Origin: Tubulanus polymorphus
Lineage: Eukaryota > Nemertea > Palaeonemertea > Tubulaniformes > Tubulanidae
Direction: 5' to 3'
DNA: 64,000 nucleotides
Assembly (NCBI RefSeq): GCF_964204645.1
Contig: NC_134029.1
Coordinates: forward strand, 370,001-434,000
Positions 8,640 through 62,200 of the stretch are shown here, piece after piece. Position 1 is the first letter of the stretch. Each line of letters begins with the position of its first letter. The notes below the pieces were generated by a model, which had not been told where the DNA came from, made no database searches, and was given only the letters and a program-made list of their open reading frames with translations. The position numbers and the translations under genes are program-made.

Positions 8640-9416
8640 TGAATGAATGGTTTCCTATGCTTAATACATACCGTGGTCAGCCGGTGACGTATTCAATAGG
8701 GCGTGTGAATGATATCAACAACTCTGAAAAGCCGCGATTGTGTCTCTATAATATTGTTGAATGGATTTACGAGCTTAGGTTCCTGCACTGGGTTGAACAC
8801 GCGCCAGTAGCTAGCTATACAATATCGTGGAACTTTAATAAGGCCATGGCATGTAAAATAAATGACTTGATTCCCAACAGCTACCCTCTCCGAATTTAGC
8901 CGCCGCCGTGACTCGACCAGGAGTAAATTAGGCCCTTCAAAGTTGATACTTCGTTTCTCATCCAAACCTCTCTCGCCGGCGCCGAACATGAGGGCGGGCG
9001 AATTTTTTGGTTATGAGATTTTTTGAAATATAAAAGTGGAAATAAACTCGTATCTTATATATTTTCTAGGGAGACGAAGGCGGGGAGTTTTTTTTCTGTT
9101 TAAATACAAAAATTATTCGCGGTGACTGCGTACCGGTACAACTAATTTAGCTGCATAATTTAAATCTTCTTATCTTCTTATTATGTATATAATAAATCAT
9201 CTATGACAAGTGAATATCTAATCCAATATTTCAAGTAAAGCCGCAAGAACGTAGTCGCCATTCCATTTCCTGCATAGCAATCGATTTTCATTTTATGTTC
9301 ACCGTATGGTGTGTCAGGCCCCGATATGGCGTGACAGGCCTCGGGTGCTCGAGGAGCAGGATGTCCTAGGTGGTGGAGTATTCACACATTTATTGAATTG
9401 AACCAATTTTATTGCA
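8640..9416. other. Intergenic / zinc-finger gene upstream region
   Basis: No supportable gene. CpG is more frequent at about 8890-9000 (CGCCGCCGTGACTCGACC, CTCTCGCCGGCGCCGAAC) than in the AT-rich surroundings. This could be a promoter-associated patch for the plus-strand zinc-finger gene or for a leftward transcript. Just before the zinc-finger ATG there is a short imperfect repeat, GTGTCAGGCC / GTGACAGGCC. No convincing TATA box is visible. Confidence 0.35.
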
Positions 9417-10230
9417 ATGGACTGCGTGTTTTATTGCTGCGGAAAGTGTAGAGGGCTTTATGAAACAGAAGAGAAACTAGAAAATCACAAGACGAATTGT
9501 ACGGCTGGAACAGATCCCGATGATTGTCAATATAGAGCAATTGATTGTCAAAAAACATCAACTCAAATTGACGATGCCGATGGCCGTGCTGCTGGCGTCA
9601 GGAGAGATAGAACTGAACAACTAGAGGAAAGATCATTACATATAGAATTAGTGAAACAAGCTGTGAATTCAATAATTCCATCGGTAGATCATTCATATAT
9701 CAGTAATCAACACCCAACAATGGTTCATCACGATGATGATGATGATACCGCACTTGCGCTGTATCCATCTGATACCGTGGATCCCCTACATCCAACAAGT
9801 GATACCGCAGTTAATTCTACTGAAGAAATCGATTCTACTTTGACAGTGAAATCCTCCAAATGCAAGAAGAATGTGAAAACGGAGAAACCACGTCGTCGGG
9901 CTATTAGCCCTGAATCGTGGGCCGAGCGAGCCAAACGCTTAACTATAGAAACCACATCTACAGGATTACTACAATTAAATGTAACTAGTTACACATGCGA
10001 TGATTGCGGTTACACGTGTAACGAGGTGGAGTCGTACATGAAACATCGACGCGAACACAACCAATCGGCACTGCCGCTGCTGTCATGTGACCAGTGCTCG
10101 TTTACTACGCAGTTTAAAAGTAGATTAAACAAACATAAAACGTGTCATAATAAACATTTAATGTGTGAGTTCTGTAGTTATAAAACGGGCGATCCATTGA
10201 CGTTAAAACGGCATACATCACGTCATACCG
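9417..10230 (+). CDS. Zinc-finger gene, exon 1
   Basis: The first coding exon carries the C2HC-like finger, the acidic and basic linkers, and fingers 1-3. It ends in the inter-finger linker HTG at the donor ACCG|GTGAGT. Without splicing, the frame continues into the intron minisatellite and stops at 10382. Confidence 0.85.
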
Positions 10231-13128
10231 GTGAGTTACATCATCTCAACTCACAGGTGGCGCTACTTTACTATGAACATCAAGATTACAATCGTTACTG
10301 TGTCTCCTGCAGTGCGAGTTTTCACAGTGTGAATACCAGTCGTTCCCTACAACTTGTTTGTGGAACGACGGCTAGGTACTAGACTAGACTAGAGTTTTCA
10401 CAGTGTGAATACCAGTCGTTCCCTACAACTTGTTTGTGGAACGACGGCTAGGTACTAGACTAGACTAGAGTTTTCACAGTGTGAATACCAGTCGTTCCCT
10501 ACAACTTGTTTGTGGAACGACGGCTAGGTACTAGACTAGACTAGAGTTTTCACAATCTGAATACCAGTCGTTCCCTACAACTTGTTTGTGGAACGACGGC
10601 TAGGTACTAGACTAGACTAGAGTTTTCACAGTGTGAATTCCAGTCGTTCCCTACAACTTGTTTGTGGAACGACGGCTAGGTACTAGACTAGACTAGAGTT
10701 TTCACAGTGTGAATTCCAGTCGTTCCCTACAACTTGTTTGTGGAACGACGGCTAGGTACTAGACTAGACTAGAGTTTTCACAGTGTGAATACCAGTCGTT
10801 CCCTACAACTTGTTTGTGGAACGACGGCTAGGTACTAGACTAGACTAGAGTTTTCACAGTGTGAATACCAGTCGTTCCCTACAACTTGTTTGTGGAACGA
10901 CGGCTAGGTACTAGACTAGACTAGAGTTTTCACAGTGTGAATACCAGTCGTTCCCTACAACTTGTTTGTGGAACGACGGCTAGGTACTAGACTAGACTAG
11001 AGTTTTCACAGTGTGAATACCAGTCGTTCCCTACAACTTGTTTGTGGAACGACGGCTAGGTACTAGACTAGACTAGAGTTTTCACAGTGTGAATTCCAGT
11101 CGTTCCCTACAACTTGTTTGTGGAACGACGGCTAGGTACTAGACTAGACTAGAGTTTTCACAGTCTGAGTGTAGATGTTGTTGTTTATATTTTGTAGGTG
11201 AGTTTCAATATAGATGTAGTGAACCTGGTTGTGATTACAGCTGTCGTCAAAAACATTCATTACACACACATCTCATGAAACATACAGGTACTTATTACTG
11301 TACCCCTCAGCCTCCACTCAGCCTGGACCCTGCACCCCTCAGCCTCCACTCAGCCTGGACCCTGTACCCCTCAGCCTGGTCCCTACCCCTCACCCTTGAT
11401 TCTGTACCCCTCAGCCTGGTCCCTACCCCTCAGCCTTGACCCTGCACCCCTCAGCCTGGAACCTGGACCCCTCAGCCTTGACCCTGCACCCCTCAGCCTG
11501 GAACCTGGACCCCTCAGCCTTGACCCTGCACCCCTCAGCCTGGAACCGGGACCCTGCACCCCTCAGCCTCCACTCAGCCTGGTCCCTGTACCCCTCAGCC
11601 TGGTCCCTGTACCCCTCAGCCTGGACCCTGCACCCCTCAGCCTGGACCCTGTACCCCTCTCAGCCCGGACCCTGTACCCCATTCAGCCTGGAACCTGCAC
11701 CCCTCAGACTGGATACTGTACCCCTCAGCCTGGACCCTGCACCCCTCTCAGCCCGGACCCTGTACCCCATTCAGCCTGGAACCTGCACCCCTCAGCCTGG
11801 TCCCTGCACCCTTCAGACTGGATACTATACCCCTCAGACTGGATACTGTACCCCTCAGCCTGGACCCTGCACCCCTCAGCCTGGTCCCTGTACCCCTCAG
11901 CCTGGTCCCTGCACCCCTCAGCCTGGTCCCTGCACCCCTCAGACTGGATACTATACCCCTCAGACTGGATACTGTACCCCTCAGCCTGGACCCTGCACCC
12001 CTCAGCCTGGTCCCTGTACCCCTCAGACTGGATACTGTACCCCTCAGCCTCGAACCTGGACCCCTCAGCCTGGACCCTGTATCCCTCTCAGCCTGGACCC
12101 TGTATCCCTCTCAGCCTGGACCCTGCACCCCTCTCAGCCCCGACCCTGCACCCCTCAGCCTGGTCCCTGCACCCCTCAGACTGGATACTGTACCCCTCAG
12201 CCTGGTCCCTGCACCCCTCAGCCTGGTCCCTGCACCCCTCAGACTGGATACTGTACCTGTTCCCCCTCATCTTCCTGAGGGTTACAGTTGCTGATTTTTA
12301 CCCACTTTATCCGAAATGAAGTGAATTTCATTAAAATATTGAATGTATGTATTTTCAGGTGAAGCGATGAAATGTCCGGAATCGAGTTGTTCGTTTACAA
12401 CTCGTCATAAATCGAGTTTAAAATTACATATTAAACGCAAACACACGACGGAGACACGAGATAAAGTGAAACTGTTTAACTGCGCGATGTGTCAATATTC
12501 AACCGATCTAAAATCATATTACAATCGACACATGAAAAAACATCTGGGATTTAAAGATTTTAAATGTTCTCAATGTTCGTATACGGCTTCGAGTAAAGAC
12601 GCGATTCGAGTTCACACGAGAATTCACTCGAATTTACAGATTTATCAGTGCGAGTTCTGCGGTTATAGAACGAACTATAGTTCGGCTTTACGCGTTCATT
12701 TAATGGTTCATCGCGATATTAAACCGTGGATGTGTTCGATCTGCGATTATAAATCAGTCACGCGACAGAAAGTCAATCGCCACATCCGACAGCGTCATAA
12801 AAACATGGACGACGCGACTGCCGTTTTTGTAAAATCGGAATCGATTCATATTTCGACGCCGAGCGTCGAGACGAGTAACGAGGAGAAAATCGTGAAACTC
12901 GGGATTAGATACGAACAATCTGAGAGTGGAAACGCTACGGAATCTACAGATCAGTGTAAACTATTAGAGTATGAGGTTCGCGAAGATGAAGAGATTTGTA
13001 CTTTACAATGTTCACTGTGTAATTTCACTTGTCACTCTGATTCATCTTTAACTTTACATCAATTGAATTTTCATTCTAACGGTCACATACAAATAGTCGA
13101 CAATGATGAACATTTTACTCAGTTCTAG
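9417..13128 (+). CDS. C2H2 zinc-finger protein (three-exon gene)
   Basis: Likely a nuclear DNA-binding protein. Joining 9417-10230, 11198-11287 and 12359-13128 gives 557 aa in one frame; both introns split a glycine codon after the first base (G|GT). It has an N-terminal C2HC-like finger (about residues 8-28), an acidic linker with a run of Asp at about 106-110, and a basic stretch KTEKPRRRAISPESWAERAK (about 155-174). Ten C2H2 fingers follow: three in exon 1 (194-214, 224-244, 250-270), one in exon 2 and six in exon 3, the last isolated near the C-terminus. Many fingers have the CxxCxY/F...HxxxH form seen in ZFP64- and REST-type proteins, but I cannot assign an orthologue. The start is chosen because an in-frame TGA lies 18 nt upstream and the context is GCAATGG. 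Confidence 0.85.
10319..11170 (+). repeat. 76-bp minisatellite in zinc-finger intron 1
   Basis: Eleven full units of exactly 76 bp plus a partial one fill nearly the whole intron. Each unit has a 13-bp palindrome TTCACAGTGTGAA, an 8-bp inverted repeat GTCGTTCC...GGAACGAC around a 15-nt loop, and a CTAGACTAGACTAG run. Units are almost identical; one has CACAATCTG in place of CACAGTGTG. The array begins about 90 bp after the donor and ends about 30 bp before the next acceptor. Confidence 0.95.
11198..11287 (+). CDS. Zinc-finger gene, exon 2 (one finger)
   Basis: A 90-nt exon between TTTTGTAG and GTACTT. It encodes exactly one C2H2 finger with a four-residue spacing between the cysteines (CSEPGC ... 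HTHLMKH). It is bounded on both sides by a split Gly codon, so skipping it would keep the frame. Confidence 0.85.
11294..12262 (+). repeat. 21-bp C-rich minisatellite in zinc-finger intron 2
   Basis: About 45 units of about 21 bp, typified by CCCTGCACCCCTCAGCCTGG. Because 21 is a multiple of three, two forward frames stay open for about 300 and 280 codons (LSLDPAP-like and PSAWTLH-like repeats). They lie inside an intron and have no domain features, so I do not treat them as genes. Each unit holds a pyrimidine run ending in CAG that resembles a 3' splice site. Confidence 0.92.
12359..13128 (+). CDS. Zinc-finger gene, exon 3 (six fingers)
   Basis: The acceptor TATTTTCAG precedes GTGAAGCG. It encodes five consecutive fingers (CPESSC, CAMC, CSQC, CEFC, CSIC types), an acidic linker, and a last C2H2 finger starting CSLCNFTCHSDSSL. 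The stop is TAG at 13126-13128. It has more CpG and regular coding-like codon use than the flanking repeats. Confidence 0.9.
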
Positions 13129-24200: not shown

Positions 24201-27200
24201 ACGTAAAACTACCGGTAAATAAGCGTTTTGGAAGGTTTTTTTATCCCACAAACCGCGACAACTGATTAAATTCAATCATTGTTTTTACCTTACTGCGTCC
24301 GCGTACTAATTGTTTACATAAAGATCCAACTCGTTGAAACTTTTGAGTAAAGAAAACATCATCAGTGATTTTGAAATCAGAGAGATTTTACCTAATGAAT
24401 TCTCAGGTCGTCATAGTTTCTGCGTTACATATACTCGACCATTCTAAAAACATTCACTACATGACAACAGTAGACACATAGTACATGAAGTAGATTATAG
24501 AGGGCGTTACTTACATCTTCTTTGGCATCTTTGTTGAGACGGCTAATGATAGTGGTTATAATTAATTGGAAGACGAATACTATGAACAATGTTAACGGAG
24601 CCATGTATAGTTCAAATGTCCAAGTCAATATCAGGAATACCTGAAAAAACAGTCAACATGTTAATCATTACAGGGAAGGAGGGATAGAGGTAGGGAGGGA
24701 TAGAGGTAGGGATAGAGGTAGGGAGGGATAGAGGTAGGGATAGAGGTAGGGAGGGATAGAGGTAGGGAGGGATAGAGGTAGGGAGGGATAGAGGGAGGGA
24801 TAGAGGTAGGGAGGGATAGAGGGAGGTAGGGATAGAGGTAGGGAGGGATAGAGGGAGGGATAGAGGTAGGGAGGGATAGCGGTAGGGAGGGATAGAGGTA
24901 GGGATAGAGGTAGGGAGGGATAGAGGTAGGGAGGGATAGAGGTAGGGAGGGATAGCGGTAGGGAGGGATAGAGGTAGGGAGGGATAGAGGGAGGGAGGGA
25001 TAGAGGGATGGAGGGAGGGATGGATAGAGGTAGGGATGGATAGAGGTAGGGAGGGATAGAGGTAGGGAGGGATAGAGGTAGGGAGGGATAGAGGGAGGGA
25101 GGAATAGAGGTAGGGAGGAATAGAGGTAGGGAGGGATAGAGGTAGGGAGGGATAGAGGGAGGGAGGGATAGAGGTAGGGATAGAGGTAGGGAGGGATAGA
25201 GGTAGGGAGGGATAGAGGTAGGGAGGGATAGCGGTAGGGAGGGATAGAGGTAGGGAGGGATAGAGGGAGGGAGGGATAGAGGGATGGAGGGAGGGATGGA
25301 TAGAGGTAGGGATGGATAGAGGTAGGGAGGGATAGAGGTAGGGATGGATAGAGGTAGGGAGGGATAGAGGTAGGGAGGGATAGAGGTAGGGAGGGATAGA
25401 GGGAGGGAGGGATAGAGGGAGGGAGGAATAGAGGTAGGGATAGAGGTAGGGAGGGATAGAGGGAGGGAGGAATAGAGGTAGGGATAGAGGTAGGGAGGGA
25501 TAGAGGGAGGGAGGGATAGAGGTAGGGAGGGATAGAGGGAGGTAGGGATAGAGGGAGGGAGGGATAGAGGTAGGGAGGGATAGAGGTAGGGAGGGATAGC
25601 GGTACGGTAGATCATGTAGGAGCGATAGATTCACTCTTATCTGTAATTAGTCGTAGTTCACCAAATATTAGAATAATTTGATATAAAAATAGTAAATTAA
25701 TTGAAAATGAACAAGAAATTATTCTGATTTTGAGAATATTTTGATATTTTAAAGAGTAGTTCAGCTCTTAGTAGACATAGCCAAGAGACAATTTGAGGGC
25801 AGTTGGAGCGACGATGGGTCATCATCGCATGAATTGGGGCTAGAAAATAGGAAGCTGTCTCGGAGGGCACGCGAATCTACTGTATGTGGTTAATAAGACT
25901 TACTATAAACGCAGCTATACTTCGAGGTTTCGATTCCCAATTAAAACAGCTTTGTAAGAAAACGCCACCTTCAACAGCGGAATCAATAATCTGCGTTAGA
26001 CGATCTATATTCCTCTTCATTACCTGCAATAATACATTCGAATTTACAAACTTGGTTTGAAGGTGATTATTGAATTGATTCTAAGCGAGTTTCAGCGATT
26101 GATACTTACAGCGATTTTGAATTGAGGTCTCGGTTGCATGTATTTCTCCTCTCTTGGATTCACTGTTCTTATTGCAGCTTTCAACTGAAACACAAACAAT
26201 TACATTTATTGTTAAACCTATCATTGACCCAGTTGCTCAAAGGTTGATTAACATTTGAGCAACTGCAGCCCTCAGTGTTCTCCCATATGCTGGCGGTTTA
26301 AAGGGGCTGTACTCATCGTTAAGTGTATTACAACATGGCTGTTGATGTAATAAGGCTTTTGATCCCCAAAAAATACAGAAAATCCAATTTTTGGTATAAT
26401 CTTCTATATTTCACATTAGCTCAATATATTTTAAAGCAATTATCCTCATTGATAGAATATTTACATCCAATCTGGCAGGGGCAACAGAAAAAAGGTGGCT
26501 GATTTTCAGAGGGATGGATGTAAAAATGAAAGGGATGGCCGGCCCTCTAAAACCTGTCCCGCGCAATAGAAGGGTTAATCCGGTGTTGAACTTACATGAT
26601 TGTATATGAAATCCATTTCTAGCTGTACAGCACCTTTGACTCGGCGGTTCAGTTTTTTGTCCTTTAAGGCGTACCATCTCTTCTCACCGTTCTTGATTCT
26701 CAATAACGGAATTACGACTTTTCCCAAGAATTCAAACTTACGATCGCGATCCTCGTCATAAACTGTGATCTCTAACATCGAGTGGATATCACGAACCGGG
26801 CTGTAATCAGAAAAACAATTTACGCAATCTCAAAATCTCTGATATTAATGAATAACGCTGATTAGGGATGCAGTTACTCAAAAACTGGGCTTGTTCGTCG
26901 ACAACTTTAACCCTAGAAATTTACAATGAAACTTCACAGTCTAACTCATAGTTTTCATGAGCATTATGTTGATAACTTATAACAAATGATGATCTACGCA
27001 TTGTACATCTAATTAGTAATACAAATTACAACTCAAAAATAGAGATGACTTCAGTAATGTGAAGACTTATCCAAATGACGACTTACACTTAGTAAATTGA
27101 ATTAGAAATACAAATTGAGACTCGAAAATATAGAGACGATTTCAGTAATGTGAAAACTTATCAGATGAAGAGTTTGACGGCATTTACATTTGAAATGGAA

Positions 27201-30200
27201 TTCATAAATGTGAGTGAGTGAGCGAGTGAGTGAGTGAGTGAGTGAGTGTAGCCTCAAGTAAAATGTTTCATTTACAGAAAATATTCTGATTTGAAATACT
27301 CGAATGAACTTACAATGTGAATATTTTACCCCATTCTGGACACAGCGTTTTGTATTCAGTATGAGTTTGACGTCTGGCGTTAACGACCTCTAATACACAG
27401 AACGGATCACTTTTACCGCCGATATCAGCAGACGCAAGACTCTGAGCCTTAAATACTTTACACTGTAACCAACCAACATCTCGGATATTCTTGAATGATT
27501 TCGCAACTCCCTAAAAATGTATCAAACAAATAAAACTAACTTTCATATGTATTTATGGTTAAGTTAATAGTTGAATACAATATTAAGTTATGGCGGAACA
27601 TAATAATAATAATAATAATAATAATTAGTGCCTATAAAGCGCCTTTCCAATGAATGCTCAAAGTGCTGTCACTCAATTATTACCCAGCTTCTGTTACCAA
27701 TCCAGTACATTCTTACTCTCCCTAGGGAGATGCAACACCGATACGCTGCAGAGCGATCAAGGCGTCGTCAGCCAGTAGCAATTGTGAATTAATGCCTTGC
27801 CTAAGGACACTACAGCACAGCCGGGGTTCGAACACACAACCTCCCGATTGGGGGGCGAGCACTCTACCACTAAGCCACACTGCTCCACAAAACATCAGCT
27901 GAATGTGGTGTAGTTAAATACATGAAATACAGTACACATTGCCTAACTAGGGCAAACTGGGACTGGCAATATTAGTTAAGGCAAAAGTCCGAGCCAAGGA
28001 TTGGAAAATGATTTCGTTTGAAAGTCAGAAAATGATGATGTTTACGGAAGCCTGAGTTGGCCGTGTCTCAGTGCGAATTTGATGTTTTGATGCTTACGTA
28101 TTTGCGTACGATTTCCTCGCGAGCTTTTCCATCTGGTAAATAATCACTGAGATCAGCCGCTCCTGTTTCACTACCTTGAGTTCCGGTAATAGTCACCAGT
28201 AATACAACTACTCCAGCTCCGTCCTCCAACTTCACTTCTACTGTATGAGTTACTTCACGATCTAAAGTTGTTAAATCAACTGTTGCCCTTTTTAAACGAA
28301 ATTCATTCATTCAATTATTCATTCACAAAATTGGTTTTAAATTTCATGACATTTATATTCAATATTTTAGTAGTTGTGTTTTATCAATCTACATCAGTTG
28401 ACAGCTCTAGACCAATGAAAAGCCAGTAGTCGACCAATAGTATAAAAAGTATTCAGTCCACTCCATATTTTGATGTTTCATGATGCTTTAAATAGTTAAA
28501 ATGGTTTCATCTAGAATTTCTTTATCGATAATGTTTTATCTTGTAACATGCAGTAAACAGTTTTTATATCTTGAAATGTTTTGCTCATCGCCCAATTCAA
28601 GACGCTAATGCTACATGCTACTAGACTCATAGTTTGCTTGGTCAAACAGCTGTATTTCAACTAAAATGGCTGTGACGCCGAATCACGATATTGGACAACG
28701 TAAACTTGCGGAATGCTCATTAATTTCAGTAAAAGCGAGCTAAAGTATCAATGGTCCTTTATCATAATCTTAAAGTGTTATTATCTATAACACACTACTG
28801 TAACAGGTTCAGTCAAGACCATTCACAACAGTTACAAAGTATTCAATTACCTTCCCATGAGATCATTCTTATCGGCGACATCGAAATCCCACACAGTCAC
28901 CTCTAACGTACTGGTCTGGTTATCGTACATATACAGTTCACACTGTTCTTTCCATCGCGGATTCAATGTTTTCATTTTAGGCTGAAATTTACAAACAGTT
29001 TCATCGGCTAAAGACTCATTCTAAACAAACATCAAATATTAGATGTTTAGATAGAAATAACATCAAACAAATTGAAGATGATTTATCAGTTTATATACTA
29101 CAGATGTGAATGTCGAAGGTTCATCCAAATGATGACTTGAAGTAAATTGAATAAGAAATACAAATTTAGACGACTTCAGTTGTGACGACTTATACAACAG
29201 AATCTATCTAAAATAGAGACGACTGTGCTGACTTATCCATGACTGAAGTGAGTTTGAGCATAATACAGATATATAACTGTAGTTACAAACCTTTCCTTTG
29301 AATTTCTCATTTCCGAGTCTTAATTTAACGAATGGATCGCTTAATCCGTTGTCGTCCATAGGAATAAGATTTTTACCCTCGACTAACACGATGTGTACTA
29401 TAGAACTATATGTGTACGTTCCTTTCTTATTACGCCCGGATTCTGCCATTTTACTCGCTCGCAAGAAATACTGAAATTATAGAAAATAAAAATCCTTTAA
29501 TTTAAACATCGTAGCAGCGCGTAGTTTGAATACCAGATCCAGTTCCACACTTCCACAATTACTGGATCCAGTTCCACAGTTACTGGATCCAGTTCCACAG
29601 TTCTCAAAATATTGAGTTAAAACATTGGATTGGAAATGAACTCTTCAGTCAAATGAACTGAGATGTATGGATCTGAGCCATACTGCTGATTTCTGAATTA
29701 ATCATGACTCATCGATAGAACCTCAGATCCAGTTCTATAGACAGAGATTTAACTGGATAAATCTAAGATCAGCTTTACGTCAAATATATTCTATAACTGT
29801 GGAACTGGGTCTGAAATGTCACAAAAAATTGAGAAGATTAACGTAAATATTTACAACAAATGATTATATATTAATCATGCAACTCTTTAAAAAACAATCA
29901 ACAAAAACTAATATAAATATATATATATATATATTGACAAGATATTTGACAAGACTGTTCTATTTAAAATGGTCTCAGTGCAGGATGATACTGAGCATGC
30001 AATGCGCAAATAATCAATCACATCATAATCATCATCAAGCATCAATCGGAATCAGTTCATTCTGGGTCATAGAATGCTAACTGTACGGATTTCATTAAAT
30101 CAGAGATAGACCTGAAATTGATTAATCATTGAAATCAACTTTAACTATCTCTATCACACACACACACTAGAATAAAACTTATCTATAATCAGCACTGACC

Positions 30201-33200
30201 TCATCTCTCATACACAGTATATTCTGAACAAATTCCTACATCACAACCAAACTTACTGTTCAAATAAATCCCCAATAAAAAACTGTTCTTTAAACGTAAA
30301 ATACAGCAGTTTGAGATGTGTGTTTTCTATGATGGAACAGCCAGGTAGTACAGGTCTGTAAATATACCTGGATCCTAGCGTGAAAAATCAATCAAACATA
30401 CCGACCTACCGACATACCGACCACACCTTAGAATATTATTTTCATTAGAGCAATAACTACAGTGTTTCATACACAGCAGGGTACCCCTATTATATACAGA
30501 TACTGGACACAGTGATCATTATAGATACCAGCAGTAACATCTAAAACCAATTTAAATCCTCATAAATGGTATGTACAACTAACTATATGACACAATAATC
30601 GCTTAGATCCAAATATTTGAATAATGATGAAGATGAAAAAACCTGTTTTAAAACGACGGTTTTCTTTAACAGTTTATCATCGTTTTCATTCTTATTTTCC
30701 TTTTTATCCATCATTTCATCAGATTTTATCATCAGAAGTATTTTGATGGGATGCTGCTCCTAATGATTGAAGTGTCTTCTTATCAATGAATACTCAATGA
30801 CCACTCAGTAGACAGCGGTCAGACTGCTCACACAGTGGACAGTGGTCAGACTGCTCACACAGTAGACCGACTGGTGACAGTGGACAGATGTCACACAGTG
30901 GACAGTCGTCAATATAGATGATACTCGTTCGTAACATCTGTTGCAGAATTATACAACAACGAAATGAATTAATATCTGGCTCTAAACACAAGGATTTCAT
31001 AATCTGTAACATATATATATCTAAAATGACTCTAAAAGTCGATGACCCAGTTCCCCAGTTTTTAGTAAAGATTTCATTCAAGAGTTGAAACATTGAAAAT
31101 GAACTAATCTCAACTCTCAACTGTAACCTACGAGCAACCATTTCAGATAATTGCTCGTAGCTGTAACTCACAACTGTGAATCGGGATCCAAGTGTAGAAT
31201 GAGGTCATTTTTATAAATTCAATAGATTTCTGGATACACAAAATCCCTGATTTATCAATGAAGTAACACTGACTAAACTAACATTTTTTTGACAACAATA
31301 GATTTTGTAACTGCAGCAGGCACATGCTTTATGCAGGAGATGTAAATCAATTAAACACATATGTAACTACTGCAATGAATAAATGATTTGATTATTGATA
31401 ATCAGTAGGAGGGGGTAGTGGAGGGGGTAAATGCTACTGAGTTTAATTTGTTAGATTCAATTTCATAATCGATAATTCTATAATATCATATCATAACGAA
31501 ATCAGATTCAATCAATCAATATCGATTTGATTATAAAATCATAATACGAACTGTACAGGAGCTGTTTAAACATAGCATCATAGATGTGAAGACTTTTCAA
31601 TCAATGTGTTAAGTTTCAAAGTTTATTATTCCATAAAAGGTAAATATTATATAATGAGCACAGATGCTTCAGTATATTCAACTAAAATGGGGCTTGACTT
31701 TCATTCAATAAGATGTGATGTGATAATTACCTTAAGAAATTAAAATTCATCTCATCATTTTTAACCAAAGCCTCATCACATTTTAATTGAATATAGATCT
31801 TGACTTCTTAATTTGTGTATATGCACTATAGATATATATAGTTAAGTTTGAGGTGTGTCTTATACAATTACATGATTCCACTGTTGTTCCGCTAACAGAG
31901 TCGTATTGACTTTTCTAATAGGAATCTCAGCAGATTCCAGGGATACCCCTGTCATAGCTGGCAAATTCTCTAAAAACTGAAAATTAAATATTTATAAAAT
32001 ACTCAATAAATAGAATTAGATCTTTGCTAGTAATTCATAGATAAGAGGACACAGTTCCACAGTTCCACAGTTCCACAGTTCCACTTTAGATGGTTCAATA
32101 AGACAATCTAAAAAAATTCAGACCTAGAATTAAATTTCAACTGAGAACAATAGAACTTGGTCCAGATGGATAAATGGAGGTAAATAAATTAAAATCTGTG
32201 TTGAACAAGTGCCTACTCAATGAGCACCCCAGGGATACCCGTAGGAGTACCCCGGGACACCCCAGGGATACCCGTAGGAGTACCCCGGGACACCCCAGGG
32301 ATACCCGTAGGAGTACCCCAGGGATACCCGTAGGAGTACCCCGGGACACCCCAGGGATACCCGTAGGAGTACCCCAGGGATACCCGTAGGAGTACTCCAG
32401 GGATACCCCAGGGATACCCGTAGGAGTACCCCAGGACACCCCGGGGATACCCGTAGGAGTACCCCAGGATACCCCAGGGTTACTTTTTGAGTACTGTATA
32501 TATGACAATCTTTTGGTAAAAACAGGCACAAAATAACGGAACAAACAGCAACTAAAAATCTATCAGTATTTTGTGTAATGGATCGACTAGTCAGCCGATT
32601 GACTGATAGACTGATCAGCCGATTGACTGATAGACTGATCAGCTAATACTAAGACTAACCTTCCCTGCAGTTTTACACTGAATTCCACCTTTAGAAGTAT
32701 GAGGAGAATGCTACGTAGATAAAAATATAGTAAAAGCAAAAAATACATCAATATATTTGTTATGATATATTCAAACAGACACGGAGAGAGTTTAAAAACT
32801 ATTACTCAAAGATAGTTCAGATAAACACCTTTAAAAAAATCATTTTAACCTACAGATAACTATCATTTACATTCAATTCCTTTAACTCTCAGTGTAGAGA
32901 TCCAGTTCCACAGTTCCATGGAGTTTAAATCTGAATCCACAATTTAAGTAGTTGAAACAGGATCCTCGAGTCAAATCTGACCAACCAATGACAGGTGGTG
33001 TGGATACTGGAGTTGCTATTTTTAAAAATTCTCGATTGAGACTTATCCACAGTTATCTAGAAGGTTGTTAAAACTAATCTATTGTGATATATTAGATTCT
33101 GAAACCACGAGATAAAGTTATTTCATGCTATAAAAATCTCCTATCGATATTACGTGCAATGACTGTATTTCAGAGGTCTACGTCCCATCCCTCCCTCTCC

Positions 33201-36200
33201 GTGAGTTGTATAGATTACTGATAGATGGCACATCAGTTCATGTCTGATTGTTCATGATGCAGAAATATTCTAGAATCTGCGTTTCTGCTAAGATATCCAG
33301 ACTTGTCGCAGTCTTTGTAAAATACCAATAATATTGACGATTTCGCAACAGAAAATAAGTTGAAAGTGTTGTTTTTGGTAGAATAGAGGCTTCTACCAAT
33401 CTTTAGAAATTTATTGATATATCAAATAAATCTGAAGATGGGTAGAAGACTATCTTAAACATCAGTGTTACAGATAATTGTCGTTAATCGTCAATATCGT
33501 GGGTGTATTTTCTATAAACCTCCGTTACTGCTATTAGAGACCCATTCACCAGTAGAATCAATTATTGTATTACCTGTTCTTTCTCATCTTGTGTTTTAGG
33601 AACAAGTTTAACTGATAGTAATATGTATCCCATGTATCCTTCTTTACTCTTTGCTTCAGAAAGCATCAGTTTCATCTCTTGCAGCCTGCGAAAATAAATA
33701 TAAAGAAAGAATATCTTAGTTTTCAGAGTCGGTAAACATAATACAAAATCAGGGGTCAATTTCAATCTGAAAGTTATTGGTTTATTTCAATGTTCCGTAT
33801 GAAGATGACTATTAGGATATAGTCGAAACGTTGAATAAACTACACTAGCTCAAGGAATACAGTATTCCTGAAGATGACTATTAGGATAAAGTCGAAACGT
33901 TGAATAAACTACACTAGCTCAAGGAATACAGTATTCCTGAAGATGACTATTAGAATATAGTTGAAACGTTGAATAAACTACACTAGCTCAAGGAATACAG
34001 TATTCCTGAAGATGACTATTAGGATAAAGTCGAAACGTTGAATAAACTACACTAGCTCAAGGAATACAGTATTCCTGAAGATGACTATTAGAATATAGTT
34101 GAAACGTTGAATAAACTACACTAGCTCAAGGAATACAGTATTCCTGAAGATGACTATTAGGATAAAGTCGAAACGTTGAATAAACTACACTAGCTGAAGG
34201 AATACAGTATTCCTGAAGATGACTATTAGGATAAAGTCGAAACGTTGAATAAACTACACTAGCTCAAGGAATACAGTATTCCTGAAGATGACTATTAGGA
34301 TATAGTCGAAACGTTGAATAAACTACACTAGCTCAAGGAATACAGTATTCCTGAAGATGACTATTAGGATATAGTCGAAACGTTGAATGAACTACACTAG
34401 CTCAAGGAATACAGTATTCCTGAAGATGACTATTAGGATATAGTCGAAACGTTGAATAAACTACACTAGCTCAAGGAATACAGTATTCCTGAAGATGACT
34501 ATTAGGATAAAGTTGAAACGTTGAATAAACTACACTAGCTGAAGGAATACAGTATTCCTGAAAATGACTATTAGAATATAGTTGAAACGATTAATAGACC
34601 ACGGCTAGAATAACTGTGTGAATTGATAACATGTATCAATATTGAAACGACAATATTTTTGCCAGTGACTAAAAGCTTTTTGCAATTGATTAAAATCCAG
34701 TCAGCCAACCAGCCAGCCAGCTTGGTCCTATTATCCGTAGATTATTTGAAAGGATTCTAAAAAGGTTTCAATTGATTGAAAACTAACTCACGTATTTAGA
34801 GGAAGATCTGAAGGTTTGATTTCCGCGAATCCCATGCTGTCGTCTTGAACACCTCGATCCCAATCGTAACATTTCACGTTGATAGCATGAAACGGATCTT
34901 CAATCGGTAAAATGAATTTCTCGTTCCAAGCCGGATTCAGGTTTTTGTGTATTGTACGACTTTTATACAGTTCTTTATGACCGAGCTTGAATTTCACGTA
35001 CGGGTCACTTGTACCTGTAACATAAAATACATACAGTTTATGAAAACGAGACCGTTGATGAAACACTTCAATTAAAGTCCTAAATGTTTCCTGGAGCTAT
35101 TAGTAAATTATTCCATTAATGTTTCAACTATATTCTAATTGGTCGTCTCAAGGAAACTCTTTTCATTATTCTCAGTGTGGGATTTTATTTGTAGTATGAA
35201 TGTATTTTATTTTTTTTTTTGGGGGGGGGGGGGTAAATCGTTTTTCATTTTAGTGCCAAAACTGAATAGAAGCCAGGATCCTGCTGCGTAGTTGCAGGAG
35301 TAATCATCATTTCCTAGAAATATTTCATCAATTTCAAGGAACTTATGTTATCTAGTTTGTTTATATATCTGGTGACCAAATCCAGCCAATCACAGCTAGG
35401 GTTAGGGTTAGGGCTGTTTGTTTATATCAGGTGGCCAGCTTCAGCCAGTCAGAAGCTATGGTTTGTTTATATCAGGTGACCAGCTCTAACCAATCAGAAG
35501 CTAGGGTTAGGGTTAGGGCTATTTGTTTACATCAGGTGACCAGCTCCAGCCAATCAGAAGCTAGGGTTAGGGTTAGGGCTATTTGTTTACATCAGCTCCA
35601 GCCAATCAGAAGCTAGGGTTAGGGTTAGGGCTATTTGTTTACATCAGCTCCAGCCAATCAGAAGTTAGGGGTTTGTTTATATCAGGTGACCTGCTCTAGC
35701 CCAATCACAAGCTAAGTTGTGACCTGTTTGCTAGGTAAATAATGAACTGTTACATAGTGTGAGATAGTTTGACAGTTACTTGTCACACAATGATCACTGA
35801 GTTTAGTAATAATCTAACAAACTAAACATTTTGAACAAAATTCTAATCTACAACTGACTGAACCAGTACAATAGTTCAAGAAGTTTATATCAACAGATCT
35901 ACAGATTGTCAAAATGAACTCTTTGTATATGTATCTAGATCAAAATAGATAAATTCTAGTATAGATAACTTCAGATATGTTGATAAGCAATGCGGGTGTA
36001 CGATAGGGTTACTACTGGTTTTACTGTTGTTTTACTGATTGGTTTTATCTGTTGATGTTATTGATGGATATTAGGATGGACAGTGCCACTCTGCGCCTCC
36101 CCTTGAGAGATCTGATTGATCATCAACTGTCGTGAACTAATCCACAAGTCACAGATAACTAAATCAGTCTGCGACGACGTGGTAGTTTGTCTCTCAGTCT

Positions 36201-39200
36201 GATCACAGTAATTGGAAGAGGTCTCTTACCACACGCGTCTCTAACAACCAGATCACGTCCTTCTTTCAAAATCACTTCTAATTCAAAGAATGGATATTTT
36301 TTCAGTTCTGCATGTCTCTGACGAATTAAAGCTGCTTCCTACAATCAAATAACCGTAAATAAATCATTACTTATAGTAAATATATGTGTGAATATTTACA
36401 CAAACGCTATTAATAAAATAGGAATAATAAATACAACGTAGATTAACGGTAATAACTATTTACATTACGCAATTTGTAACATTTCATCTATATTTATAAG
36501 CTGTTAAGATGTAGATAAATGTAAAGCACAGGGTTGGTTCTACTAGGACCGGAATCTCTGAGAGTAAAGAACAGGGTTGGTTCTACTAGGACCAGAATCT
36601 CTGAGAGTAAAGAACAGGGTTGGTTCTACTAGGACCAGAATCTCTGAGAGTAAAGAACAGGGTTGGTTCTACTAGGACCAGAATCTCTGAGAGTAAAGAA
36701 CAGGGTTGGTTCTACTAGGACCAGAATCTCTGAGAGTAAAGAACAGGGTTGGTTCTACTAGGACCAGAATCTCTGAGAGTAAAGAACAGGGTTGGTTCTA
36801 CTAGGACCAGAATCTCTGAGAGTAAAGAACAGGGTTGGTTCTACTAGGACCAGAATCTCTGAGAGTAAAGAACAGGGTTGGTTCTACTAGGACCAGAATC
36901 TCTGAGAGTAAAGAACAGGGTTGGTTCTACTAGGACCAGAATCTCTGAGAGTAAAGAACAGGGTTGGTTCTACTAGAACCAGAATCTCTGAGAGTAAAGA
37001 ACAGGGTTGGTTCTACTAGGACCGGAATCTCTAAGAGTAAAGAACAGGGTTGGTTCTACTAGGACCGGAATCTTCGAGAGTAAAGAACAGGGTTGGTTCT
37101 ACTAGGACCGGAATCTCTGAGAGTAAAGAACAGGGTTGGTTCTACTAGGACCGGAATCTCTAAGAGTAAAGAACAGGGTTGGTTCTACTAGGACCGGAAT
37201 CTCTAAGAGTAAAGAACAGGGTTGGTTCTACTAGGACCGGAATCTCTAAGAGTAAAGAACAGGGTTGGTTCTACTAGGACCGGAATCTCTGAGAGTAAAG
37301 AACAGGGTTGGTTCTACTAGGACCGGAATCTCTGAGAGTAAAGAACAGGGTTGGTTCTACTAGGACCAGAATCTCTGAGAGTAAAGAACAGGGTTGGTTC
37401 TACTAGGACCAGAATCTCTGAGAGTAAAGAACAGGGTTGGTTCTACTAGGACCAGAATCTCTGAGAGTAAAGAACAGGGTTGGTTCTACTAGGACCAGAA
37501 TCTCTGAGAGTAAAGAACAGGGTTGGTTCTACTAGGACCAGAATCTCTGAGAGTAAAGAACAGGGTTGGTTCTACTAGGACCAGAATCTCTGAGAGTAAA
37601 GAACAGGGTTGGTTCTACTAGGACCAGAATCTCTGAGAGTAAAGAACAGGGTTGGTTCTACTAGAACCAGAATCTCTGAGAGTAAAGAACAGGGTTGGTT
37701 CTACTAGGACCGGAATCTCTAAGAGTAAAGAACAGGGTTGGTTCTACTAGGACCGGAATCTTCGAGAGTAAAGAACAGGGTTGGTTCTACTAGGACCGGA
37801 ATCTCTGAGAGTAAAGAACAGGGTTGGTTCTACTAGGACCGGAATCTCTAAGAGTAAAGAACAGGGTTGGTTCTACTAGGACCGGAATCTCTAAGAGTAA
37901 AGAACAGGGTTGGTTCTACTAGGACCGGAATCTCTAAGAGTAAAGAACAGGGTTGGTTCTACTAGGACCGGAATCTCTGAGAGTAAAGAACAGGGTTGGT
38001 TCTACTAGGACCGGAATCTCTGAGAGTAAAGAACAGGGTTGGTTCTACTAGGACCAGAATCTCTGAGAGTAAAGAACAGGGTTGGTTCTACTAGGACCAG
38101 AATCTCTGAGAGTAAAGAACAGGGTTGGTTCTACTAGGACCGGAATCTCTAAGAGTAAAGAACAGGGTTGGTTCTACTAGGACCGGAATCTCTGAGAGTA
38201 AAGAACAGGGTTGGTTCTACTAGAACCAGAATCTCTGAGAGTAAAGAACAGGGTTGGTTCTACTAGGACCAGAATCTCTAAGAGTAAAGAACAGGGTTGG
38301 TTCTACTAGGACCAGAATCTCTGAGAGTAAAGAACAGGGTTGGTTCTACTAGGACCGGAATCTCTGAGAGTAAAGAACAGGGTTGGTTCTACTAGAACCG
38401 GAATCTCTGAGAGTAAAGAACAGGGTTGGTTCTACTAGGACCAGAATCTCTGAGAGTAAAGAACAGGGTTGGTTCTACTAGAACCGGAATCTCTGAGAGT
38501 AAAGAACAGGGTTGGTTCTACTAGGACCAGAATCTCTGAGAGTAAAGAACAGGGTTGGTTCTACTAGGACCGGAATCTCTGAGAGTAAAGAACAGGGTTG
38601 GTTCTACTAGGACCAGAATCTCTGAGAGTAAAGAACAGGGTTGGTTCTACTAGGACCAGAATCTCTGAGAGTAAAGAACAGGGTTGGTTCTACTAGGACC
38701 GGAATCTCTGAGAGTAAAGAACAGGGTTGGTTCTACTAGGACCAGAATCTCTGAGAGTAAAGAACAGGGTTGGTTCTACTAGGACCAGAATCTCTGAGAG
38801 TAAAGAACAGGGTTGGTTCTACTAGGACCAGAATCTCTGAGAGTAAAGAACAGGGTTGGTTCTACTAGGACCAGAATCTGCGAGAGTAAAGAACAGGGTT
38901 GGTTCTACTAGGACCGGAATCTCTGAGAGTAAAGAACAGGGTTGGTTCTACTAGGACCAGAATCTCTAAGAGTAAAGAACAGGGTTGGTTCTACTAGGAC
39001 CGGAATCTCTGAGAGTAAAGAGCAGGGTTGGTTCTACTAGGACCAGAATCTCTAAGAGTAAAGAACAGGGTTGGTTCTACTAGGACCAGAATCTCTGAGA
39101 GTAAAGAACAGGGTTGGTTCTACTAGGACCGGAATCTCCGAGAGTAAAGAACAGGGTTGGTTCTACTAGGACCAGAATCTCTGAGAGTAAAGAACAGGGT

Positions 39201-41542
39201 TGGTTCTACTAGGACCGGAATCTCCGAGAGTAAAGAACAGGGTTGGTTCTACTAGGACCGGAATCTCTGAGAGTAAAGAACAGGGTTGGTTCTACTAGGA
39301 CCGGAATCTCTAAGAGTAAAGAACAGGGTTGGTTCTACTAGGACCAGAATCTCTGAGAGTAAAGAACAGGGTTGGTTCTACTAGGACCAGAATCTCTGAG
39401 AGTAAAGAACAGGGTTGGTTCTACTAGGACCAGAATCTCTAAGAGTAAAGAACAGGGTTGGTTCTACTAGGACCAGAATCTCTGAGAGTAAAGAACAGGG
39501 TTGGTTCTACTAGGACCAGAATCTTCGAGAGTCTTTACAAGATTTCAAGGCAAATTGGATCAGAAAACAGCATTTGAATGAGAATAAGCAAACTACAGTC
39601 ATTTCAGCGTCAAATTTCCAGAATTATAGACAGAATTAAAAATTACAAAGTGCCTTTACCGCATGAAGGTATTTAATATTTTGAGTGTCCTATGAAAGTT
39701 AAGACCCCCATGATCGACCCCTACAGATTTACAGTAAGAGACTGCGTTAAATATGAAATAAAGCTTTCAGTAAAATTAAACTGAGTAAACATTTAAAATG
39801 AGACTGAATCAATACATCGACAATTCCATTAGTGACACTGATTTTAACACTCTGAGTCCGGGTGGCGATGATAATATAAAATCCCACACTGACGATGAAA
39901 CTAGTCGGAAATGTTTCCTCGAGCTAGAATATATTTGATGTTTTGACTCAATTCCCAAAAGTCTACAGTAATATTGAACAACTGAAATCATTAGTATTCT
40001 TCAATAGGATACGACGATGTAAGGATATAATCAAAATTAGCCCAAAGGAAACTTTTCAGACTCTTTTGAGTTTTCATTATCAGTGTTAGATTTTATAACA
40101 CGTACTCAAGAGTCACAACTCAAACACCTGTGAAACAAATATACCCAATCTTCCTCTTCATTTTTATCCTCATTTAAATCGGTAAAAACCTCATCATCGC
40201 CGTCCTCATCTACAGTAGGATCATCTTCAATTTCGTCGAATAAATCCGAACTGAATTCCGAACTTAATTCTGAACTTCGCAGCGAAAACTGAAAATGTCT
40301 CTTAAACGAATTCATAATAATTAAACAGCTCCCTCTCGGTTATACTTAGCATCATCCGAGTCAGCCTCTCGCGTGCTGCAGCCGGGGTACCGTCGGGTAC
40401 CGTAGTTACGTCTAAACAGAAATCTGATATTTCAAGAAATTATTTCGTCATATCACTGAATAGCGAAACTGATTTGAAACAGAGTTTGGACGGAACACAT
40501 GTGGTAAATCTGTGTCAGTCAGTAACGTGTCACATTCTCTAATCAATGAGATAGTTTAAACCGTGTACCGTGTATATACGTGAAAATAGCCTGCAGTTCT
40601 ATTTATCAGAGCTGGGAAATATCACCTGTATATCAAATATCAGTTCCTCCTTCTCAATTAAAATATCACAATCAAAATACCGCGCAATAATTACAACAAT
40701 CAACTGTCACAAATTTCACAAAACGCTATTTTCCACACAATGATCCACCATACTATTCCAAAGCTCCACAATGTAATAATTTATGCGCTGGCTGTAGCCG
40801 GATGAAATTCTATCCTGCAGTCGTTTGTACAGTTTGATGAAAGCTCTGGTCAAGTCCTCTGACTCTCTCCCCGCTCTCTGCCTCACACATCGCACATAAA
40901 TCTATTTTCATCGCTCGATGCTGTCACTGATAATACACCGGTCAAATGTGTTCATTTCCTCACCACAGTTCTAATGATTTCTCTATCGCCAGTTTCACAG
41001 AGTTTTATTCCAATCACAGCACCACGGATAAACTAGGATTACGAACATGTCTTATCCTGTGGCACCGACTTCCTCTACTCCTATTGTTTACCAGTAACAA
41101 CCTCTCAACTCACAACAGTATTTAATATTAAATTACTGTACATAATGAAGCATTCATTCTAACAGCAGCACCGCCCTAGAGAGGTCTATCACTCCCCTAG
41201 AGAGGACTATAACTCCCTTAGAGAGGACTGGACATTCCACTTTGATTCCAACATTGTCTAACACTTCACTATACGATGAATCAATAGATAAAAAGTAGTA
41301 TTTTTTCCTGTAAATGCCTCCTCGCACCACGCGCGCCTGTACACACTACTGGTGACACTAAACAGTGCTGTATAGATTTCATAGTAAAACGTATAAAAGA
41401 AACAGTTTGAGTCAATGTCACCAGCTGTGATCAGAGGACATCAGTCCCTCTACACATCACCTCTCTCCCTCTCCCTCTCTCTCTCTCAACTCTCCCTCTC
41501 TCCCTCCCTCTGCCTCTCCCTCTCCCTCTACAATATACACAC

Positions 41543-59230: not shown

Positions 59231-59287
59231 AACTACAAACTCTAACCCCGTGTCCTATAGATCAGTTCCTGGATCAACCCCGGGTCA

Positions 59288-62200
59288 CCATAACTACTGA
59301 CAGTCTCCTCGTATCTGAACCTGGGAGCTGGTTATCAGTCTAGCCTCATCGGACCCACCAGTAACTACTGACAGTCTCCTCGTATCGGAACCTGGGTGCT
59401 GGTTATCAGTCTAGCCTCATCGGACCCACCAGTAACTACTGACAGTCTCCTCGTATCTGAACCTGAGAGCTGGTTATCAGTCTAGCCTCATCGGACCCAC
59501 CAGTAACTACTGACAGTCTCCTCGTATCAGAACCTGGGAGCTGGTTATCAGTCTAGCCTCATCGGACCCACCAGTAACTACTGACAGTCTCCTCGTATCT
59601 GAACCTGGGAGCTGTTTATCAGTCTAGCCTCATCGGACCCACCAGTAACTACTGACAGTCTCCTTGTATCGGAACATGGGAGCTGGTTATCAGTCTAGCC
59701 TCATCGGACCCACCAGTAACTACTGACAGTCTCCTCGTATCTGAACCTGGGAGCTGGTTATCAGTCTAGCCTCATCGGACCCACCAGTAACTACTGACAG
59801 TCTCCTCGTATCTGAACCTGGGAGCTGGTTATCAGTCTAGCCTCATCGGACCCACCAGTAACTACTGACAGTCTCCTCGTATCTGAACCTGAGAGCTGGT
59901 TATCAGTCTAGCCTCATCGGACCCACCAGTAACTACTGACAGTCTCCTCGTATCTGAACCTGGGAGCTGGTTATCAGTCTAGCCTCATCGGACCCACCAG
60001 TAACTACTGACAGTCTCCTCGTATCTGAACCTGGGAGCTGGTTATCAGTCTAGCCTCATCGGACCCACCAGTAACTACTGACAGTCTCCTCGTATCTGAA
60101 CCTGAGAGCTGGTTATCAGTCTAGCCTCATCGGACCCACCAGTAACTACTGACAGTCTCCTCGTATCTGAACCTGGGAGCTGGTTATCAGTCTAGCCTCA
60201 TCGGACCCACCAGTAACTACTGACAGTCTCCTTGTATCGGAACCTGGGAGCTGGTTATCAGTCTAGCCTCATCGGACCCACCAGTAACTACTGACAGTCT
60301 CCTCGTATCGGAACCTGGGAGCTGGTTATCAGTCTAGCCTCATCGGACCCACCAGTAACTACTGACAGTCTCCTTGTATCGGAACCTGGGAGCTGGTTAT
60401 CAGTCTAGCCTCATCGGACCCACCAGTAACTACTGACAGTCTCCTCGTATCGGAACCTGGGAGCTGGTTATCAGTCTAGCCTCATCGGACCCACCAGTAA
60501 CTACTGACAGTCTCCTCGTATCGGAACCTGGGAGCTGGTTATCAGTCTAGCCTCATCGGACCCACCAGTAACTACTGACAGTCTCCTCGTATCTGAACCT
60601 GGGAGCTGGTTATCAGTCTAGCCTCATCGGACCCACCAGTAACTACTGACAGTCTCCTCGTATCGGAACCTGGGAGCTGGTTATCAGTCTAGCCTCATCG
60701 GACCCACCAGTAACTACTGACAGTCTCCTCGTATCGGAAACTGTGAGCTGGTTATCAGTCTAGCCTCATCGGACCCACCAGTAACTACTGACAGTCTCCT
60801 CGTATCGGAACCTGAGAGCTGGTTATCAGTCTAGCCTCATCGGACCCACCAGTAACTACTGACAGTCTCCTCGTATCGGAACCTGGGAGCTGGTTATCAG
60901 TCTAGCCTCATCGGACCCACCAGTAACTACTGACAGTCTCCTTGTATCGGAACCTGGGAGCTGGTTATCAGTCTAGCCTCATCGGACCCACCAGTAACTA
61001 CTGACAGTCTCCTCGTATCGGAACCTGGGTGCTGGTTATCAGTCTAGCCTCATCGGACCCACCAGTAACTACTGACAGTCTCCTCGTATCTGAACCTGGG
61101 AGCTGGTTATCAGTCTAGCCTCATCGGACCCACCAGTAACTACTGACAGTCTCCTCGTATCTGAACCTGGGAGCTGGTTATCAGTCTAGCCTCATCGGAC
61201 CCACCAGTAACTACTGACAGTCTCCTCGTATCTGAACCTGGGAGCTGGTTATCAGTCTAGCCTCATCGGACCCACCAGTAACTACTGACAGTCTCCTCGT
61301 ATCGGAACCTGGGAGCTGGTTATCAGTCTAGCCTCATCGGACCCACCAGTAACTACTGACAGTCTCCTCGTATCGGAACCTGAGAGCTGGTTATCAGTCT
61401 AGCCTCATCGGACCCACCAGTAACTACTGACAGTCTCCTTGTATCGGAACCTGGGAGCTGGTTATCAGTCTAGCCTCATCGGACCCACCAGTAACTACTG
61501 ACAGTCTCCTCGTATCGGAACCTGAGAGCTGGTTATCAGTCTAGCCTCATCGGACCCACCAGTAACTACTGACAGTCTCCTCGTATCTGAACCTGGGAGC
61601 TGGTTATCAGTCTAGCCTCATCGGACCCACCAGTAACTACTGACAGTCTCCTTGTATCGGAACCTGGGAGCTGGTTATCAGTCTAGCCTCATCGGACCCA
61701 CCAGTAACTACTGACAGTCTCCTTGTATCTGAACCTGGGAGCTGGTTATCAGTCTAGCCTCATCGGACCCACCAGTAACTACTGACAGTCTCCTCGTATC
61801 TGAACCTGGGAGCTGGTTATCAGTCTAGCCTCATCGGACCCACCAGTAACTACTGACAGTCTCCTTGTATCGGAACCTGAGAGCTGGTTATCAGTCTAGC
61901 CTCATCGGACCCACCAGTAACTACTGACAGTCTCCTCGTATCTGAACCTGGGAGCTGGTTATCAGTCTAGCCTCATCGGACCCACCAGTAACTACTGACA
62001 GTCTCCTTGTATCGGAACCTGAGAGCTGGTTATCAGTCTAGCCTCATCGGACCCACCAGTAACTACTGACAGTCTCCTTGTATCGGAACCTGAGAGCTGT
62101 TTATCAGTCTAGCCTCATCGGACCCACCAGTAACTACTGACAGTCTCCTTGTATCGGAACCTGAGAGCTGGTTATCAGTCTAGCCTCATCGGACCCACCA

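Follow-up and report, generated by a model that had tools for sequence, protein, structure and literature searches.

A 69-bp tandem array of Penelope-type minimal hammerhead motifs in an intron of the nemertean Tubulanus polymorphus

Results

A hammerhead-like motif in every inner unit of the array

The analysed window is a 64,000-nucleotide stretch of the Tubulanus polymorphus genome (contig C5, positions 370001-434000), and within an intron of a C2-domain gene it carries a tandem array whose 69-bp unit consists of a hammerhead motif and a short linker (Table 1). An earlier note, made from the letters alone, had placed this array at 33801-34605 with an exact 69-bp period. Tandem Repeats Finder (TRF) confirms the array and the period of 69, with 96% matches among copies, and ends it nine bases earlier. 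The array has 12 unit starts, among which the first (33801, preceded by TAT, not CCT) is degenerate, as is the last, which reads GAAAATG... and stops after GAAACG. The note's central claim, a hammerhead-like core in every inner unit, holds. Specifically, all ten inner units contain CTGANGA, one extra T, stem II, GAAA, a zero-loop CGT, H17 and a 5-pair stem I, as found by a descriptor that specified CTGANGA, at most one extra base, four or more stem II pairs, GAAA, CGT without a loop, and H17. A loop-free ACGT is present in 10/10 inner units, as the descriptor required. The descriptor matches nothing on the window's minus strand and nothing on either strand of 60 simulated dinucleotide-Markov windows. 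Stem II comprises six consecutive pairs in five inner units, two of which include a G-U pair, as the note had described; the remaining five have four, with an A.A mismatch that it had left unmentioned. On the hammerhead numbering, the cut would presumably fall after position 34453 in the example unit of Table 1.

Table 1. Array, example unit and host-gene features, in window coordinates
Feature	Position	Strand	Basis
Tandem array, 69 bp, 11.6 copies; unit, Penelope-type minimal hammerhead motif plus short linker	33800..34596	+	TRF; 12 R2 covariance-model hits
Ten complete inner units; CTGANGA starts at 33868, 33937, 34006, 34075, 34144, 34213, 34282, 34351, 34420, 34489	33868..34557	+	Descriptor scan
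Example unit, stem I 5' strand TATTC	34415..34419	+	Sequence; stem I compensated across families
Example unit, core CTGAAGA	34420..34426	+	Sequence; descriptor
Example unit, extra T between core and stem II	34427	+	Sequence; same T in 10/10 motif copies beside Penelope ORFs
Example unit, stem II GACTAT/ATAGTC with 6-nt loop	34428..34445	+	96.1% of stem II cells paired, 3/6 pairs doubly changed across families
Example unit, GAA, then self-complementary ACGT (stem III partner, loop-free) and U17	34446..34453	+	Sequence
Example unit, stem I 3' strand GAATA	34454..34458	+	Sequence; cross-family stem compensation
Palindrome GGAATACAGTATTCC at deletion junction of the 69-bp unit; competes with stem I	34406..34420	+	Sequence; minimum-energy folds
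Host intron of C2-domain gene, about 1.1 kb; array fills about 72%, antisense to gene	33686..34791	-	C2 exon 34791-35096; splice sites by eye
Exon frame, C2 domain (1.9e-18)	34791-35096	-	Pfam
Frame, C2 domain (3.2e-6)	29207-29476	-	Pfam
Frame, C2 domain (5.4e-10)	27313-27510	-	Pfam
Frame, C2 domain (1.9e-5)	26578-26829	-	Pfam
Short frame, likely next exon, no Pfam match	33565-33786	-	Pfam

Covariance models of related families recover all units

The earlier note had looked to the Rfam hammerhead models as a check of its reading. No Rfam family reaches its gathering score anywhere in the window, and relaxing E as far as 10 brings out no hammerhead in the array. By itself this blank would amount to one half of what the note had named as refuting its reading. 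Rfam is equally blank on the motif-bearing terminal regions of two Penelope-like families described below (family 2, L067 680-880; family 3, L070 180-350), and we therefore discarded it as an arbiter of hammerhead identity. This hammerhead form, missed altogether in the three stretches tried, thus marks a blind spot of Rfam, whose silence probably reflects models that expect stem III. RF00163 has 0 matches across the 268-Mb genome, and its 14 control genomes likewise give 0. Purpose-built covariance models find what Rfam does not. Model R1, which includes one window unit, finds 12/12 array units; model R2, a fair test built solely from seven copies of the other motif form and without the family of the array, also finds 12/12, with E between 3.5e-6 and 5.6e-14, the next best place in the window having E 0.27. 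A scan of viral contigs gave 19 stretches (best 23.7 bits) against about 25 expected by chance on a rough estimate, and was not built upon.

The motif lies beside ORFs of Penelope-like elements

Across the genome, the pattern CTGAAGATGN{6,30}CGAAACGTTG (the CTGAAGATG form) has 870+865 exact copies, and the pattern CTGATGATGN{6,30}CGAAACGTTG (the CTGATGATG form) has 260+266, with 0 copies of either pattern reversed. Many motif copies form inverted pairs among the matches listed. One such pair (L061) flanks a 637-aa open reading frame (ORF; P0001) with Pfam matches to RVT_1 (1.3e-7) and GIY-YIG (1.3e-5). We read this ORF as Penelope-like because the two domains are found together; an RVT_1-type reverse transcriptase with GIY-YIG is given as the domain pair of canonical Penelope-like elements (PMC11167929). 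The 637-aa protein has at least 72 matches in the genome, with identities from 100% to 63% among those listed (the best 69 of 1593 candidates), and motif copies also adjoin the ORFs of relatives at 63-71% protein identity, the domains having been scanned for the 637-aa ORF only.

Three families are distinguished by their motifs. Family 1 reads TATTC-CTGAAGA-T-GACTAT..ATAGTC-GAAACGTT-GAATA, family 2 (66-71% protein identity) reads TACGC-CTGATGA-T-GGCTAA..TTAGCC-GAAACGTT-GCGCA, and family 3 (63% protein identity) reads TCCAC-CTGATGA-T-GGCTGT..ACAGCC-GAAACGTT-GTGGT. The pattern applied to ORF flanks fixed only CTGANGA and GAAAC and left the extra T and GT free, and the extra T, GTT and a loop-free ACGT nevertheless occur in 10/10 motif copies beside Penelope ORFs, which represent three motif types and thus few independent cases. 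The doubts that the earlier note had raised over the extra T and GTT lose weight to that extent. A direct motif copy precedes the ORF in L065 and L067, the ORFs of L065/L066 and L067/L068 have direct copies on either side, and the matched upstream copy is inverted in L061, L069 and L072; L069 has an additional direct copy, read by eye, with a damaged core. In families 1 to 3 the motif is located in the terminal repeats of Penelope-like elements. The subfamily of the array itself yielded no element with an ORF, but just a 167-bp unit with terminal sequence like that of family 1.

Many frames of the Penelope-like families at L061 and L065-L074 are uninterrupted and about 98% identical, a sign that these families may have been active in this genome recently.

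Stems I and II are compensated across families

Stems I and II show compensated changes across the three families, and the core, the extra T and GTT are kept. In the alignment used (A1, 17 of 32 distinct cores), the named structure pairs in 87.7% of cells, where shuffles give 73.1% and slid versions no more than 42.2%. Thirty cells are changed on both sides, versus 10.3 in shuffles (0/500 as high), and the covariation score is 0.436, versus 0.188 in shuffles (0/500 as high) and at most 0.189 when slid. Thus, CUGANGA ... GAA is flanked by compensated stems I and II. Conservation of letters proves nothing in those parts of the 32 cores that the search pattern had fixed, namely the core, the extra T, the first stem II pair, GAAACGTTG and the length.

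A 167-bp repeat links the array to the elements

The 69-bp unit is not confined to the window, since a two-unit query has at least 227 matches in the genome (listed as the best 40 of 583 first-look candidates). A spacer is common to the flanks of several arrays, and 82 bp of it, used as a query, lead to 167-bp tandem repeats, with at least 125 matches, located chiefly on C8 among the matches listed (the best 40 of 209 candidates). The same hammerhead motif is present in many 167-bp units, and spacings of 236 (167+69) occur in L078 and L079. No ORF was seen in the 69-bp or 167-bp tandem arrays.

The 167-bp spacer aligns to the family 1 terminal region with a score of 49, versus a mean of 21.6 in shuffles (0/1000 as high), and the alignment spans from just past the motif to the ACACGGA...GTGTTT tail ahead of the ORF. 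This alignment is our ground for the 167-bp unit, which reads as a Penelope terminal repeat minus its ORF. The 69-bp unit is the 167-bp repeat shortened by 98 bp, and the new junction creates GGAATACAGTATTCC, a palindrome absent from the junctions between the 167-bp units inspected.

At L078 and L081-L086 (C8, 0.9-3.7 Mb), the motif-bearing 167-bp tandem repeat is retrozyme-like in size.

Arrays share one majority unit and, in the sample, mostly lie near contig ends

To compare units we used 20 arrays (262 units), namely the window and 19 loci among L003-L030; L001, L002, L006, L007, L010, L011, L015, L018, L020, L022 and L024 were excluded as overlapping the same arrays, and units with fewer than 56/69 identities were not counted. 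The majority unit is identical across the 20 arrays except for T/A at position 22, with L009 also showing A at position 18. Units with T22 and units with A22 are both present in 20/20 arrays, including arrays of three to seven counted units.

Flanks were compared for these arrays plus L114 (21 arrays; at most 1000 bp per flank, some shorter, down to 323 bp). The longest common match is 146 bp, and segmental duplication is not supported as the cause of dispersal, the flanks being unrelated over the ≤1000 bp examined. A segment of the 167-bp unit or of the family 1 terminal region lies on at least one side of 15/21 arrays, compared with 0/42 shuffled flanks. These segments are direct or inverted, and their best match is the 167-bp unit in 12 arrays and family 1 in L003, L027 and L030. 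On the simplest reading, arrays move as oligomers in company with Penelope terminal sequence.

Among the 36 array loci listed for the two-unit query, several of which are close together (C6, C2) and so not independent, 32 are no more than 2 Mb away from a contig end, where 18% would be expected on the nine contigs. The corresponding count for single motif copies on C1 is 8/48 (expected 12.5%), these copies being the C1 rows of the motif listing with close pairs counted once; three array loci on C1 belong to neither group. The end of C3 is 3.7 kb away from one array, and the last 5 kb of that contig contain TTAGGG 0 times and CCCTAA once.

Folding and predicted cleavage

The core is intact by our criterion in 238/262 units, 120 of which have all six stem II pairs. 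In a 121-nt two-unit RNA, the nested double hammerhead has a computed energy of -12.0 kcal/mol, or -16.6 with the rest folded; such energies ignore tertiary contacts, ions and protein. By analogy, self-cleavage of array transcripts is plausible, because reviews describe Penelope motifs as tandem, devoid of helix III and possibly cleaving as dimers (PMC7761336, PMC6466107), a viroid hammerhead with an extra nucleotide in its core is documented, to go by its title, in reference 28 of PMC6155905, and three of five candidate minimal hammerheads from satellite-like Schistosoma repeats cut in vitro (PMC8490949).

The host gene and other repeats of the window

Read by eye on the minus strand, the intron that contains the array opens with a GTGAGT donor at 34791 and closes with a CAG acceptor at 33686. 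Several C2-domain exons of one minus-strand gene are spread across 26578-35096, and this multi-C2 gene looks like an MCTP. The ribozyme strand is antisense to the gene, and therefore normal gene transcription would not make the ribozyme; the array in the window is probably a silent passenger in the intron.

Other tandem arrays are present in the window. Close to the 69-bp array lies a 43-bp array (36521-39532, 70 copies, 97% matches), and a 71-bp array (59286-64000, 66 copies) reaches the window end. A 57-bp array occupies 305-1886, with longer periods of 117 and 231 bp over part of it. A 76-bp array (10316-11168, 98% matches) begins within the open frame 9402-10382, whose C2H2 zinc finger match falls short of the Pfam cut-off, and a further open frame (12343-13128) contains C2H2 zinc fingers, including matches to ZNF142-type models.

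Discussion

We consider it likely that the array is a tandem repeat derived from the terminal region (pseudo-long terminal repeat, pLTR) of a Penelope-like element, with a unit that contains little beyond a minimal type I hammerhead, and that it spread as oligomers. The earlier note had proposed descent from such an element, and the genome-wide motif counts, the ORF-flanking copies, the compensated stems and the R2 matches support this part of its reading. In a plus-strand transcript, neighbouring units could pair ACGT with ACGT as a shared stem III and so form a double hammerhead. The predicted cut after GAAACGTT would yield RNAs of 69 nt or multiples of 69 nt that could be ligated into circles, and multi-unit transcripts might be copied and inserted as oligomers by the machinery of the element. 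Cutting may need the protein of the element, as with the Anolis Penelope ribozyme, which shows no cutting without it (PMC11167929).

Several results weigh against the reading just given. In the covariation analysis, 7/11 pairs are doubly changed, a count equalled in 28/500 shuffles, and the 12 further pair types are equalled in 445/500; the latter count does not exceed shuffles, as three families with few independent events would lead one to expect. The 167-bp spacer matches family 2 weakly (42/1000 shuffles as good), and the window's own array has no 167-bp-unit or family 1 segment on either side. Other results would suit a Penelope-derived array that spread purely at the DNA level, by slippage, unequal crossing over, extrachromosomal circles or exchange at chromosome ends, with the ribozyme as an inactive passenger. 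The subtelomeric bias (32/36 array loci versus 8/48 single copies) is typical of recombination-driven minisatellites as well, and the window holds many other minisatellites. Within arrays, selection on the ribozyme was looked for and does not clearly show: the mean minor frequency of CTGAAGA (0.019) equals that of the linker (0.019), with 0.009 for GAA, and T22A weakens stem II by an A.A mismatch in 119/262 units. Moreover, the ribozyme fold is not the minimum-energy fold, which for two units has -25.1 kcal/mol, 8.5 below the double hammerhead, and for the 167-bp tandem has -37.0 versus -28.8 kcal/mol. In Anolis, ribozyme-dead RNA was still inserted in vitro, so that insertion was independent of the ribozyme, and no reads started or ended at the cut site (PMC11167929). 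Spread at the DNA level does not by itself lead one to expect element segments around 15/21 arrays with unrelated DNA outside them, which is what whole-package insertion would leave. It also has to accommodate both unit variants in 20/20 arrays, even small ones, although exchange between arrays could produce the same mixture. We hold it to be a possibility of some substance, if a doubtful one, and favour dispersal of the Penelope-derived array as oligomers.

A bolder proposal sees in the 69-nt unit a living retrozyme, below any viroid in size, in which double hammerheads would cut the plus-strand RNA, 69-nt circles would form, and the Penelope reverse transcriptase would roll copies into arrays inserted preferentially near chromosome ends. 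If true, it would explain why the same two unit variants are mixed in every array examined, but as a model it seems unlikely to us. Far less probable still is a decayed canonical metazoan retrozyme with a complete type I hammerhead, including stem III and loop-loop contacts. The 167-bp repeat does fit the published sizes of about 150-450 bp, near their lower limit (PMC7229834); however, a stem III loop is present in 0/10 inner units, the 167-bp spacer matches the family 1 terminal region, and the genome has no RF00163 match, a blank to be read beside that of the 14 control genomes. Finally, the absence of Rfam hammerheads from the array and the inability of a monomer to form stem III are what a minisatellite hairpin that merely reads like a hammerhead would give. 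We reject such a chance resemblance, which we rate as next to impossible: the simulated windows contain no descriptor match, and Rfam is silent on families 2 and 3 too. The compensated stems, together with the recovery of 12/12 units by a model from other families, argue strongly against it.

Penelope hammerheads are described as widespread, and their role is called unknown (PMC7761336). A genome in which well-kept Penelope families, a 167-bp repeat and a 69-bp repeat share one motif offers a direct test of whether the ribozyme has a role in making arrays or spreading them at chromosome ends. Penelope minimal hammerheads were presented by Cervera and de la Pena (2014) and by Lunse, Weinberg and Breaker (2017), as cited in PMC7761336, PMC6155905 and PMC6466107. 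Like those, the motif analysed here is of type I, lacks a usable stem III, resides, in families 1 to 3, in terminal repeats and may act as a tandem dimer through its palindromic stem III end, as is said of those motifs; unlike those, it also makes up tandem arrays of 69-bp and 167-bp units, where we saw no ORF. A comparable element is PAc of Anolis, with a stem I and stem II hammerhead at the pLTR of a GIY-YIG Penelope element (PMC11167929). The PAc start codon is at stem II, whereas the likely ORF start here, MLPTDR, is downstream of the motif; PAc cut only with its protein, whereas the ribozyme of the array is a predicted one. The satellite-like W elements of Schistosoma resemble the array as satellite-like repeats with minimal hammerheads, but the one unit length found for a hammerhead-bearing family among them is 403 bp, and the consulted part of PMC8490949 states no Penelope origin.

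Metazoan non-LTR (long terminal repeat) retrozymes are, like the array, non-coding tandem repeats with type I hammerheads, many copies and a G+C content below 50%, but they measure about 150-450 bp and typically carry canonical hammerheads (PMC7229834), whereas the unit here has 69 bp and the minimal Penelope form. The 167-bp unit falls inside that size range and the 69-bp unit outside it. Newt satellite 2 and the avocado sunblotch viroid have longer repeats and another origin. Their double hammerheads share with the array a weak stem III and the dimeric mechanism in tandem copies that is predicted for it (PMC6155905). In the open-licence literature, a body of work that leaves out the 2014 and 2017 primary papers, we found no report of Penelope-type hammerhead tandem arrays with units as short as 69 bp. 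The ribozyme class is a known one; what looks new is that it serves as a spreading tandem repeat with such a short unit.
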